64,000 nucleotides of DNA, taken from positions 1,302,001-1,366,000 of the forward strand of contig NZ_CP021235.1 of NCBI RefSeq assembly GCF_003585765.1, written 5' to 3'. Of this stretch, positions 40,965-49,381 are shown in pieces (positions within the stretch are counted from its first letter, which is position 1; each line of letters opens with the position of its first letter). The translations under genes were made by a program, and so were the position numbers. This DNA comes from Pontibacter actiniarum. Its GTDB lineage: Bacteria > Bacteroidota > Bacteroidia > Cytophagales > Hymenobacteraceae. The notes beneath the pieces were generated by a model, which did no database searches, was not told the origin of the DNA, and saw nothing but the letters and a program-made list of their open reading frames with translations.

Positions 40965-41029
40965 CAAAAGTCCACAATTACCACATGCCAAAAGATGACC
41001 TAGGTCACTCACGCCAGTGATTATCGTCA
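40965..41029 (-). promoter_or_regulatory. ccoG promoter with tandem FNR-like sites (22/33 geometry)
   Basis: Plus-strand coordinates: proximal palindrome TGACCTAGGTCA 40996-41007, distal TGATTATCGTCA 41018-41029, centres 22 bp apart. On the minus strand GACTTTTG (40965-40972) differs from TAnnTTTG at one base, and its centre is exactly 33 bp from that of the proximal site. The start codon is about 85 bp further on. The same numbers recur at ccoN and ccoI. Confidence 0.7.
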
Positions 41030-44939: not shown

Positions 44940-45004
44940 CAAAATTGCGCAGGAATGCGTTTCTAAAAGATGACGAATGTCACTCGGGTAAGTGATTGAT
45001 ATCA
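44940..45004 (-). promoter_or_regulatory. ccoNO promoter with tandem FNR-like sites (22/33 geometry)
   Basis: Proximal palindrome TGACGAATGTCA 44971-44982; distal TGATTGATATCA 44993-45004; centres 22 bp apart. The minus-strand box CAATTTTG (44940-44947) differs from TAnnTTTG at one base and its centre is 33 bp from that of the proximal site. The transcript would have a leader of about 100 nt. Positions correspond to activators near -41 and -63. Confidence 0.75.
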
Positions 45005-45488: not shown

Positions 45489-47897
45489 CTATAGACCGGC
45501 TTTCCTGGCCGCAAAGCGCACCGACAGCGTTGCAAAAAGGATGACACTGATCGAGCTGATCGGCATAAGTATGGCCGAGATGATCGGGGTGAACAGCCCC
45601 TGCACAGCCAGTGTAAGCCCCACCACATTATAGATCAGCGATACGGCAAAGCTGGCCAGGATGATGTTCATGCTCTTTTTGGAGAAACCGATGAAGCGGC
45701 TCAGCTTATCAAAGGCGGTGGCATCCAGGATGGCGTCGCAGGAGGGCGAGAAGTTGGTGATGCTGTTGGTGAGCGCAATGCCGGCGTCGCTCTGCTTCAG
45801 GGCACCGGCATCGTTCAGGCCGTCTCCCACCATCAGCACGTGGCGCTGCTGGTTTTTCAGGCTCTTGATGTACTCCAGCTTCTGCACCGGCGACTGGTTA
45901 AAGTTAAGTTCAGCCTCCTCACCCAGCAGTTCCCGCAGCCGGGCCGCCTCATGGTCGTTGTCGCCGGAAAGTACGGCCAGCTTATCGATGTGCAGCCCTT
46001 GCAGTACCTCCTTCAGGCCCTGGCGGTACACGTTAAAGAAGGTGTAGTAACCTAGCACAACACCATCCACCGATACATAAACGGTTGTTTTAAGGGCATC
46101 CTTTTCCTGGGAGGTGTTTACGCCCAAGTATGCTGCCGAACCGACGCGCACGAAATGGCCGTTTACTTCGCCTGCCACCCCTTTGCCTGCAAACTCCTGA
46201 AAGCCCTGCACCTCCAGCGTGTCTCCCTGTATGAAATGGAAAATACGCTGGCTAAGCGGGTGCGTGGAGTGGCTCAGCACAGATTTTATACTTTGCTCCT
46301 GCGCCGGCGTAAGCACTTTGCCTGTGTAGCTAACCTCGGCCGCGCTTGGCTCCGTCAGAGTTCCGGTCTTATCAAACACCACGGTGTCTATTTTAGCCAG
46401 AGTCTCCACAACGCTGGTGTTTTTGAGGAAGAACTTGTTTTTGCCAAAGATACGGAGGGTGTTACCGTGTACGAACGGCGTAGACAGGGAAAGGGCGCAT
46501 GGGCAGGCAATGATCAATACCGAGGTAAAGGCCTTCATGGCCATGCTCGTGTCGCGCGGCACCCAGTACACCAGGGCGCCCGCCGCTACCAGCAATGTAA
46601 CGATGATAAACCACTTGCCGGCAACGTTGGCGTAGCTTTCCATACTTTGCTCTTCGTTTTTGGAGAACACGCTGTTGTTCCAGAGCTGTGTCAGGTAGCC
46701 TTGCGACACCTCCTTCACTACCTCCAGCTCCACGCTCTCTCCTACCTGGCGGCCGCCGGCGTAAATCACCTCGCCCACCACCTTCTCTACCGGCTCCGAC
46801 TCCCCACTCACAAAGCTGTAGTCAATCATGGCGGTGCCGTGCAGCAGCATGGCGTCGGCGGGTATCAGCTCCTGGTTACGGATGCGGATGCGGTCGCTCA
46901 CCTTCAGGTTACGCACCGCCACCGACTCCTCCTCACCGTTCTCCTTCAGTACCGTTACCGACACCGGGAAATAGGAGGTATAGTCCCTGTCAAAAGAAAG
47001 TGTGTCATAGGTCTTTTGCTGAAAGTACTTGCCGATCAGCATGAAGAACACCAGCCCGGTAAAAGAGTCCAGGTAGCCTGCCCCAGTGTTGGTTAGTATT
47101 TGGTAAAGGCTCGTGATGAAGAGCGCGAGCAAGCCTGTGGCAATGGGTAGGTCAATGTTGATCATGTGCTGGCGAATGCCCTGCCAGGCCGACTCAAAAA
47201 AGCCACGGGCACTGTAGAAAAACACCGGCAGCGACAGCAGCACGCTCAGGTAGCCGAAAAAGCGGCCGTAATCGCGCTGCACTTCCTCGCCCAGTGCCAG
47301 GTAGTCCGGAAAGGCCAGCAGCATCACATTGCCGAAGCAGAAGCCGGCAATGCCAAGCTTATAAATAAGTGAGTAGTTCTTCTTTGTTTCCTTCTTCCCG
47401 TCAGTGTCGGCCAGGGTAATGGCCGGCTCATAGCCTATCTGCGCCAGCAGCTCTACCACCTGGCGCAGCGAGGTTTTCTGGTGAAAATAAGTTAGCGACA
47501 CCTCCTTGCGCAGGAAGTTCACAGTAGACTCGGCAACGCCAGGATTAAGCTTAAACAGGTTCTCTAGCAGCCAGATACAAGAGCTGCAGTGCATCTGCGG
47601 AACATAGAAAGTCAGTTTGCAGATGCTGTCGTTCTTAAAGTTGATGAGCTGCGCCTCCACCCCTGCGTCATCCAGGTAGGCAAATCGCGCCTGCGCCAGG
47701 GGCTGCTTCCCGGAAATGCCCGGGTTATCCTCCAGCGAGTAATAGGTGCAGAGGTTGTTCTCTTCCAGTAGCTCGTATACGCTTTTGCAGCCGGCACAGC
47801 AGAATGACTTGTCATGTGCGATAATCAGCTCATCCACGCAGGAGTCGCCACAGTGGTAACAGGTTTGAATCTTTGTTTGGAGTGCGGTTTCCATCAC
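45489..47897 (-). CDS. ccoI: Copper-translocating P1B-type ATPase, CcoI/FixI-like
   Basis: An 802-residue heavy-metal pump that supplies copper for CcoN. An N-terminal cysteine cluster (CYHCGDSC ... CCAGC) is followed by an HMA domain with MHCSSC near residue 97. There are eight membrane helices with the CPC ion motif in IIACPCALSLS. The phosphorylation site DKTGTLT, the HP motif SHSTHPLSQRI and the hinge GDGLND are all present. The combination of N-terminal zinc-finger-like metal domain plus HMA plus CPC is typical of FixI. It is expressed from the paired-site promoter it shares with the divergent gene at 48085. Confidence 0.92.
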   Translation of the reverse strand: MMETALQTKIQTCYHCGDSCVDELIIAHDKSFCCAGCKSVYELLEENNLCTYYSLEDNPGISGKQPLAQARFAYLDDAGVEAQLINFKNDSICKLTFYVPQMHCSSCIWLLENLFKLNPGVAESTVNFLRKEVSLTYFHQKTSLRQVVELLAQIGYEPAITLADTDGKKETKKNYSLIYKLGIAGFCFGNVMLLAFPDYLALGEEVQRDYGRFFGYLSVLLSLPVFFYSARGFFESAWQGIRQHMINIDLPIATGLLALFITSLYQILTNTGAGYLDSFTGLVFFMLIGKYFQQKTYDTLSFDRDYTSYFPVSVTVLKENGEEESVAVRNLKVSDRIRIRNQELIPADAMLLHGTAMIDYSFVSGESEPVEKVVGEVIYAGGRQVGESVELEVVKEVSQGYLTQLWNNSVFSKNEEQSMESYANVAGKWFIIVTLLVAAGALVYWVPRDTSMAMKAFTSVLIIACPCALSLSTPFVHGNTLRIFGKNKFFLKNTSVVETLAKIDTVVFDKTGTLTEPSAAEVSYTGKVLTPAQEQSIKSVLSHSTHPLSQRIFHFIQGDTLEVQGFQEFAGKGVAGEVNGHFVRVGSAAYLGVNTSQEKDALKTTVYVSVDGVVLGYYTFFNVYRQGLKEVLQGLHIDKLAVLSGDNDHEAARLRELLGEEAELNFNQSPVQKLEYIKSLKNQQRHVLMVGDGLNDAGALKQSDAGIALTNSITNFSPSCDAILDATAFDKLSRFIGFSKKSMNIILASFAVSLIYNVVGLTLAVQGLFTPIISAILMPISSISVILFATLSVRFAARKAGL

Positions 47898-47920: not shown

Positions 47921-48016
47921 CAAAGGTAGATGGAGCCGCTTGCAGAAAAGATGATGAATGTCAGTTAAGGATGTGATACATGTCAGTGTTTTAGAGCACA
48001 GATAGGGAGAAATTTG
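47921..48016. promoter_or_regulatory. Divergent ccoI / membrane-protein promoters with tandem FNR-like sites
   Basis: Sites TGATGAATGTCA 47952-47963 and TGATACATGTCA 47974-47985, centres 22 bp apart. On the minus strand TACCTTTG (47921-47928, exact TAnnTTTG) is centred 33 bp from the first site. On the plus strand GAAATTTG (48009-48016, one mismatch) is centred 33 bp from the second site. One pair of sites can therefore serve both genes. Confidence 0.75.
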
Positions 48017-48084
48017 CTTTTGTAAACATCGATGAAAATCAGCCTGAGCATAGCCTGTTGCTTTCTCTGGAGCTGGAAACCGGC

Positions 48085-48561
48085 ATGAAAAAGCAGACTT
48101 TACAGCTGATGATGGTAATGGCCGCCTTTGTATGGGCTGGCATGGTGGCAGGAATATCTTTCCTGGAGGCCCCTGTAAAGTTTACAGCCCCGCACGTTAC
48201 CCTGGAGATCGGGCTCGGCATCGGGAGGCTGGTGTTCGGTTACCTCAACAAGGTGGAGTTGGTGCTGTGCGCCGCGGTGTTTTTAGGGGCCCTCTACAGC
48301 CAGTCAACAGGCAAAGTGTGGCTGTGGGTTTTGTCGCTAACAAGCTTGCTGCTGCTGCAGTCCTTCTGGCTGCTGCCTGCGCTGGATGTGCGGGCACTGG
48401 CTATACTTGCCGGGCAGGACCCCGGGGAGAGTGTGCTGCACCTTGTGTACGTGGCGCTGGAAATAGTTAAGCTTGTGTTGCTGCTTAGTACCGGGTGCAT
48501 GGTTTTCGTTGCGGCCCTGAAGCAGGAGCAGCAGTTAAGGTATAAAAAGTTTAGTGTTTAG
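48085..48561 (+). CDS. Unknown four-helix membrane protein, cbb3-regulon neighbour
   Basis: A 158-residue protein starting at ATG 48085 (MKKQTLQLMMVM); a longer version from 48058 would add nine polar residues. Four hydrophobic helices at about residues 5-30, 50-70, 75-98 and 118-145. The first loop reads SFLEAPVKFTAPHVTLEIGL. The layout is superficially like DUF4149/TMEM205 proteins, but I would not assign it. Its promoter shares the tandem FNR-like sites with divergent ccoI at the same 33-bp spacing, which places it in the predicted micro-oxic regulon. It is followed by a terminator. Confidence 0.6.
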   Translation: MKKQTLQLMMVMAAFVWAGMVAGISFLEAPVKFTAPHVTLEIGLGIGRLVFGYLNKVELVLCAAVFLGALYSQSTGKVWLWVLSLTSLLLLQSFWLLPALDVRALAILAGQDPGESVLHLVYVALEIVKLVLLLSTGCMVFVAALKQEQQLRYKKFSV

Positions 48562-48607
48562 TTAAGTATAAATGGTGTTACGTGTCGTATAGACCATGCG
48601 AGCGTAG

Positions 48608-48636
48608 AAAGGCAGACTGTGATGCAGTCTGCCTTT
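48608..48636 (+). terminator. Terminator after the 48085 membrane-protein gene
   Basis: Perfect 12-bp stem, arms 48608-48619 and 48625-48636, 5-nt loop, ending CTTTTGTT. Confidence 0.75.
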
Positions 48637-48770
48637 TGTTATTTATACGTGTGCGAGATGTTTAAACCGTTTGAGTGACAGATTGTATCGGCGCAGTAAG
48701 CTCTCCGGTCGGTCCTTTCGCTGTTTCTGCCTTCCTGTGCCTCCTGTGGTTTGCCAGAAGCTTGAAAGCC

Positions 48771-48832: not shown

Positions 48833-49381
48833 TTACTTTACCAGCAGCACCCCGTTCATCTTTTCCCAATGTCCCGGGTAGGTGCAGACAAAATCATACG
48901 TGCCTGGCTTTGTGGGTGCCGTAAACTCCAGCTCCACGGTCTGGCCGGGCAGTGCCATGGGCGTGGCGGCAATCACCAGCTTGCTGTCAGGAACGTAGCT
49001 GCCGGAGGCGCCTACCTCGGCTGCGGCGAGGGCGACTTCCTTATACTTGCCGGGCTCTGTAAAGACCACGTTGTGCACCATGGGCATGTCTATCCCTTCG
49101 TTCACGAGGTTTAGTTTAACCAGAGCGCCCGCCTTTACCTCTAAGGTGTCTTTGCTGTACCTGATCTCCTCCAGCGTGTTGCCGAGGGCGTGTAAGTTCA
49201 GCTCCTGTACTGGCTGCAGCGTCGTGTCCTGGTCCTCCACCAGAGGGGCGCTGGCCGCAGTGGCGGTGTCCTTCAAAGGATCGCTTACGTCCAGATCGCC
49301 TTCTGCTTCGGGGGGGCTGCAGCCCCAGAAAAGCGACAGCGCTAGCAGCAGCGACAGTATGTTAATCCAGTTCTTTTTCAT
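48833..49381 (-). CDS. Azurin/plastocyanin-like copper lipoprotein
   Basis: A 182-residue lipoprotein (lipobox FWGC, C20) with a spacer of about 40 residues, then a cupredoxin fold. The type 1 copper ligands are visible: H in MVHNVVF, and C, H and M in VCTYPGHWEKMNG. The C-x4-H-x3-M spacing (C near 166, H near 171, M near 175) is close to that of azurin (C112, H117, M121). Such proteins act as periplasmic electron shuttles, and the cbb3 cytochrome oxidase locus is about 3.7 kb away. It lies 48 bp downstream of the L,D-transpeptidase gene on the same strand. Confidence 0.85.
   Translation of the reverse strand: MKKNWINILSLLLALSLFWGCSPPEAEGDLDVSDPLKDTATAASAPLVEDQDTTLQPVQELNLHALGNTLEEIRYSKDTLEVKAGALVKLNLVNEGIDMPMVHNVVFTEPGKYKEVALAAAEVGASGSYVPDSKLVIAATPMALPGQTVELEFTAPTKPGTYDFVCTYPGHWEKMNGVLLVK

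Follow-up and report, generated by a model that had tools for sequence, protein, structure and literature searches.

A conserved dual Crp/Fnr-type operator beside ccoI in Pontibacter and a candidate divergent small RNA

Does the pair of Crp/Fnr-type sites beside ccoI serve one promoter or two, and what is transcribed on the side that faces away from ccoI? We addressed this question in a 64,000-nt stretch of the Pontibacter actiniarum genome (NZ_CP021235.1, positions 1,302,001–1,366,000; hereafter the window, whose own numbering is used below). The ccoI gene (45489–47894, minus strand) lies within the cco cluster and encodes a CcoI/FixI-like P1B-type copper ATPase with metal-binding, HMA, E1-E2 ATPase, and hydrolase domains in Pfam. 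Divergent from it is a plus-strand gene for a 158-aa four-helix membrane protein (48085–48561; hereafter 4TM). Two sites between the genes, the ccoI-proximal TGATGAATGTCA (47952–47963) and the distal TGATACATGTCA (47974–47985, centre 47979.5), have the TGA-N6-TCA half-site core of Crp/Fnr-type operators and are spaced 22 bp apart. Each is accompanied by an outward-facing element: the centre of TGATGAATGTCA is 33 bp from the ccoI promoter -7 element TACCTTTG (47921–47928, minus strand), and the centre of TGATACATGTCA is 33 bp from the centre of the -7-like element GAAATTTG of the divergent promoter (48009–48016, plus strand). Both of these mirrored distances had been pointed out in a first-pass annotation and are borne out by the sequence. 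The same annotation described the distal site as a palindrome; the site and its position are real, but the symmetry of both sites is limited to TGA-N6-TCA and neither palindrome is perfect. Of the two -7 elements, the one on the plus strand is the weaker, and many species have NANNTTTG in place of TANNTTTG, with a T missing.

Dual sites of this kind number three in the window, as against none in 100 first-order Markov shuffles. At this spacing, five were found in the 4.97 Mb genome versus none in the reversed control, three of the five being in the cco cluster. The other two dual sites of the window, upstream of ccoN (44971–45004) and ccoG (40996–41029), carry TTTG on one side, the minus side where the gene is, and thus provide an in-window contrast to the two-sided ccoI site. 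Another dual site was found upstream of a nirK-cytochrome c gene, and the fifth (C1:3282371–3282404) precedes a 464-aa ORF that belongs to no Pfam family.

The arrangement is retained across the family. We compared 41 distinct dual-site ccoI loci: every one has TTTG at offset 27 from the site facing ccoI, and 39 have it within offsets 26–28 in the opposite direction (32 at 27 and six at 28). In 20 family loci, ccoI and the four-helix gene point away from each other, and 18 of these loci keep both sites, 22 or 23 bp apart; the site pair is also kept in 27 of 28 Pontibacter loci that lack the four-helix gene. Because TTTG is two-sided in 39 of these 41 pairs and one-sided at ccoN and ccoG, the sequences indicate that the two-way promoter is conserved and not incidental, and it is presumably active in both directions. 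The proposal of the first-pass annotation that one site pair may serve two divergent promoters is thus well matched by a dual operator with outward promoters that is conserved over the family genera tested.

What signal might act on this operator? Elsewhere in the genome, sites followed by a -7 element were found before two flavohaemoglobins, rhodanese and persulfide-type genes, a sulfite-exporter-like gene, and a CcmC-like gene. In addition, a single site precedes the cupin-truncated haemoglobin operon of P. actiniarum; it stands at the exact spacing, 23 nt before TAAACTTG, which differs from the -7 consensus by one base. A genome search with the single-site pattern returned 13 matches, and the reversed control one; some of the matches without a fitting gene are likely due to chance. 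These genes form a coherent group of low-oxygen and NO functions, and this wider regulon suggests low-oxygen/NO control, in keeping with the micro-oxic regulation that had been suspected for the unit. Strict Fnr control was considered as well: the classic palindrome TTGATN4ATCAA occurs at eight places, none of them in the window, and this idea was therefore dropped. In a flavobacterial transcriptome study, cbb3 was induced under oxygen limitation, and the main text makes no mention of CRP or FNR (PMC9723704).

A Crp/Fnr regulator adjoins the unit in Hymenobacter (a receiver-CRP fusion) and in many Pontibacter (a Cys-rich Fnr). Of 50 Pontibacter genomes, 27 carry the gene for the Cys-rich Fnr-like protein (at least 73% identity), and in nearly all of these it adjoins the RNA module described below. 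An orthologue of this ccoI-adjacent, Cys-rich Fnr was not found in the P. actiniarum genome, so the sensor in this species can only be inferred. Its best homologue there is a receiver-CRP fusion (45% identity, near C1:3244205), which has homologues of similar size in nearly all of the genus Pontibacter. No other strong homologue of the Fnr that adjoins ccoI in the genus was found in this genome, which makes the fusion the likeliest candidate activator in P. actiniarum. Glu181-A6 and Arg180-G3 correlations have been described (PMC1274295). Both the receiver-CRP fusion and the Cys-rich Fnr have Glu and Arg at the positions expected to read TGA, and Lys where CRP has R180, as assigned by eye.

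The distribution of the plus-strand gene is uneven. The first-pass annotation proposed looking for a conserved divergent ccoI/4TM unit in Cytophagales; within the family, Hymenobacter, Rufibacter, and further genera conserve such a unit, but the order at large does not, and only one of its genomes outside the family has a 4TM homologue. Within the genus, 4TM adjoins ccoI in only two of 50 Pontibacter genomes, though nearly all have ccoI. Absence of the gene beside ccoI in relatives had been named as an observation that would count against shared control; it does apply to the gene within the genus, but the plus promoter persists there and leads to an RNA module instead. In a ccoI tree with open forks and long branches leading to the outgroups, P. 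actiniarum groups with a genome that lacks 4TM (G023), and the other 4TM-bearing genome (G038) falls in another clade. Because the two 4TM-bearing genomes are in separate ccoI clades, the tree tentatively points to several losses of the ORF or to two gains. Loss is tentatively favored, since the outgroup genera show the same ccoI/4TM arrangement. Convergent with the 4TM transcript is an azurin/plastocyanin-like cupredoxin gene (48833–49381, minus strand), which occupies the same position in the sister genome G023 (locus L065), where 4TM is lacking.

The RNA module (48549–48642, plus strand) is about 90 nt long, overlaps the last codons and the stop of 4TM, and makes up the 3'UTR of that gene. 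It comprises a AGTTTAGT-containing core, hairpin 1 (48579–48606), and an intrinsic terminator hairpin (48607–48637). Where 4TM is kept, in two genomes, the module starts at its stop codon; here the 4TM reading frame closes with AAG TTT AGT GTT TAG, its last residues and stop. The covariance model (R1) found the module once in the P. actiniarum genome (65 bits, E-value = 6.7e-8). Matches of at least 49 bits occur in 37 of 50 Pontibacter genomes, and in each of these the module adjoins ccoI by coordinates. TTTAGT upstream of the terminator stem is invariant across the module alignment, and the terminator hairpin has two-sided changes in five of ten pairs in an alignment (A1) that includes close relatives. 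Hairpin 1 is left unaligned by MAFFT, and its covariation was taken from per-sequence folds. Its stem is kept while its sequence is free: among 18 distinct stems, the duplex of a stem's own arms averages -8.5 kcal/mol versus -2.9 kcal/mol for swapped arms, and 24 of 26 regions fold at -5.9 or better, compared with a mean of four and a maximum of eight after shuffling.

The 4TM ORF is absent in 24 Pontibacter loci that have the plus promoter and the module. The promoter lies roughly 70–360 nt upstream of the module and is conserved without the ORF. The dual site and plus promoter occur together in 25 of 25 Pontibacter loci with the module and in one of four without it, and this last locus (L063) has an unrelated plus-strand ORF there. 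In L063 and L058, the plus-strand gene beside the dual site is an MsrA-like ORF that replaces 4TM or the module. No remnant of the 4TM ORF was found by tblastn in the RNA interval of species lacking 4TM, and small ORFs in this interval of Pontibacter without 4TM were neither consistent nor homologous, with no conserved one among them. The module had no credible covariance-model match in Rfam, FnrS included, and no convincing match outside Pontibacter among the loci sampled. Because the ORF is absent in these 24 loci while a conserved promoter, structure, and terminator stay, the module in Pontibacter without 4TM is suggested to be part of a candidate small RNA. A tentative hypothesis, which we rate somewhat below an even chance, is that a Crp/Fnr-driven small RNA descends from a membrane-protein gene, specifically from its 3'UTR. 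The ORF would have disappeared repeatedly, leaving the promoter, structured 3' end, and terminator in place, with P. actiniarum keeping the coding state.

Two other readings would remove either the second promoter or the small RNA. The two sites might serve ccoI only, by tandem activation, with the plus element incidental and the plus-strand gene transcribed from a constitutive promoter of its own. The use of two sites for a single promoter at ccoN and ccoG, where TTTG is one-sided, and the degenerate plus -7 element would fit such a reading, but it is quite improbable given the plus-side TTTG that recurs at the 39 loci noted above even where the ORF is gone. The module, for its part, might be a mere bidirectional terminator for the convergent neighbor (an fnr, hemN-like, or cupredoxin gene), with no small RNA, and indeed its stem has an A run and a T run on its flanks and, in most genomes, a convergent gene opposite it. 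A terminator as such, however, leaves out the invariant upstream TTTAGT, the second hairpin that is kept with changing stems, and the upstream promoter conserved without the ORF; the module also persists beside different convergent genes. We therefore regard this possibility as somewhat unlikely.

The function of 4TM was also considered. Its AlphaFold2 model contains four helices (mean pLDDT 88.9). The first-pass annotation had left the protein without a family, and no Pfam or NCBIfam family was matched in our profile search either; weak DUF4149 (PF13664) matches were seen in seven of 28 homologues (best E-value = 0.0029) and none in the window protein, which is not assigned as a member of those membrane proteins. 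Foldseek comparison of the model with the PDB gave no match at E ≤ 0.001. A scan of named genomes found the family to be broad, including Bacteroidota, Actinobacteria, Acidobacteria, and others. It had been proposed that 4TM aids cbb3 oxidase or copper maturation, and 4TM is divergent from ccoI in the 20 family loci, directly follows a ccoI-like gene in two others (L155 and L164), and lies behind ccoN/ccoO-like genes in flavobacterial operons. On the other hand, it is missing beside ccoI in 48 of 50 Pontibacter genomes, nearly all of which have ccoI, and Mycobacterium and Nocardia loci contain it with no ccoI in the vicinity. The recurrent neighbor is instead a truncated haemoglobin, found within 3.5 kb in 41 of the 80 best-matching 4TM loci (not an even sample of the family), about twice as many as have ccoI (18). 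In 35 of these 41, the globin is on the same strand and at most 150 bp away, usually as an operon. The maturation role is thus improbable. Considering this genomic context, 4TM is probably a membrane partner of truncated haemoglobin in O2/NO handling, and a globin-linked NO/O2 role appears likelier than copper or oxidase maturation. The link comes from homologues elsewhere; in P. actiniarum the globin is near C1:3.51 Mb, away from 4TM.

A second 4TM type, about 44% identical, was observed away from ccoI in ten Pontibacter genomes, and in Pontibacter mangrovi it comes after a truncated haemoglobin gene. In seven flavobacterial and other loci (L106, L131, L134, L137, L142, L147, and L149), a divergent CcoN-like oxidase, a CcoO-like cytochrome, a truncated haemoglobin, and 4TM occur together. 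The CcoN-like protein scores far below the curated ccoN cut-off, and these clusters possibly encode an unusual oxidase or NO reductase.

Taken together, we consider it likely that a shared dual operator drives ccoI to the left and a second transcript to the right. In this model the tandem TGA-N6-TCA sites, which are separated by two helical turns, would each hold a dimer of a Crp/Fnr-family activator, and each dimer would recruit RNA polymerase at the -7 element on its own side, in a class-II-like position at about -41.5 from the expected start. A single low-oxygen/NO signal would thereby switch on both transcripts. The rightward transcript in P. actiniarum would be the 4TM mRNA with its structured 3'UTR; in most Pontibacter, where the ORF is absent, the same promoter would apparently yield a small RNA of about 140–300 nt ending in the module.

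The closest known promoters are the E. coli FNR/CRP class II promoters with tandem sites, which share the TGA-N6-TCA core and the activator centre near -41.5 (a predicted position here). Unlike these, the present unit has a Bacteroidota -7 element, one site pair that would feed two outward promoters, and a sensor which is probably a receiver-CRP fusion and not an Fe-S Fnr. The candidate RNA would share with FnrS, the FNR-activated enterobacterial small RNA, a Crp/Fnr-type promoter, short length, an intrinsic terminator, and a low-oxygen regulon, but it lacks an Rfam match, belongs to another phylum, and adjoins ccoI. Our literature search found no description of a unit combining the ccoI dual operator with 4TM or the RNA.

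Oxygen control of respiration in Bacteroidota is poorly charted, and the locus offers a precise operator rule (TGA-N6-TCA, 23 nt, -7 element) together with a candidate regulon that links the cbb3 oxidase, nirK, and globins. It also gives a clue to the function of a membrane family that spans several phyla and has no name, along with a candidate small RNA found in both a coding and a non-coding state within a single genus. If real, the Pontibacter small RNA would add a post-transcriptional layer to the low-oxygen/NO response.
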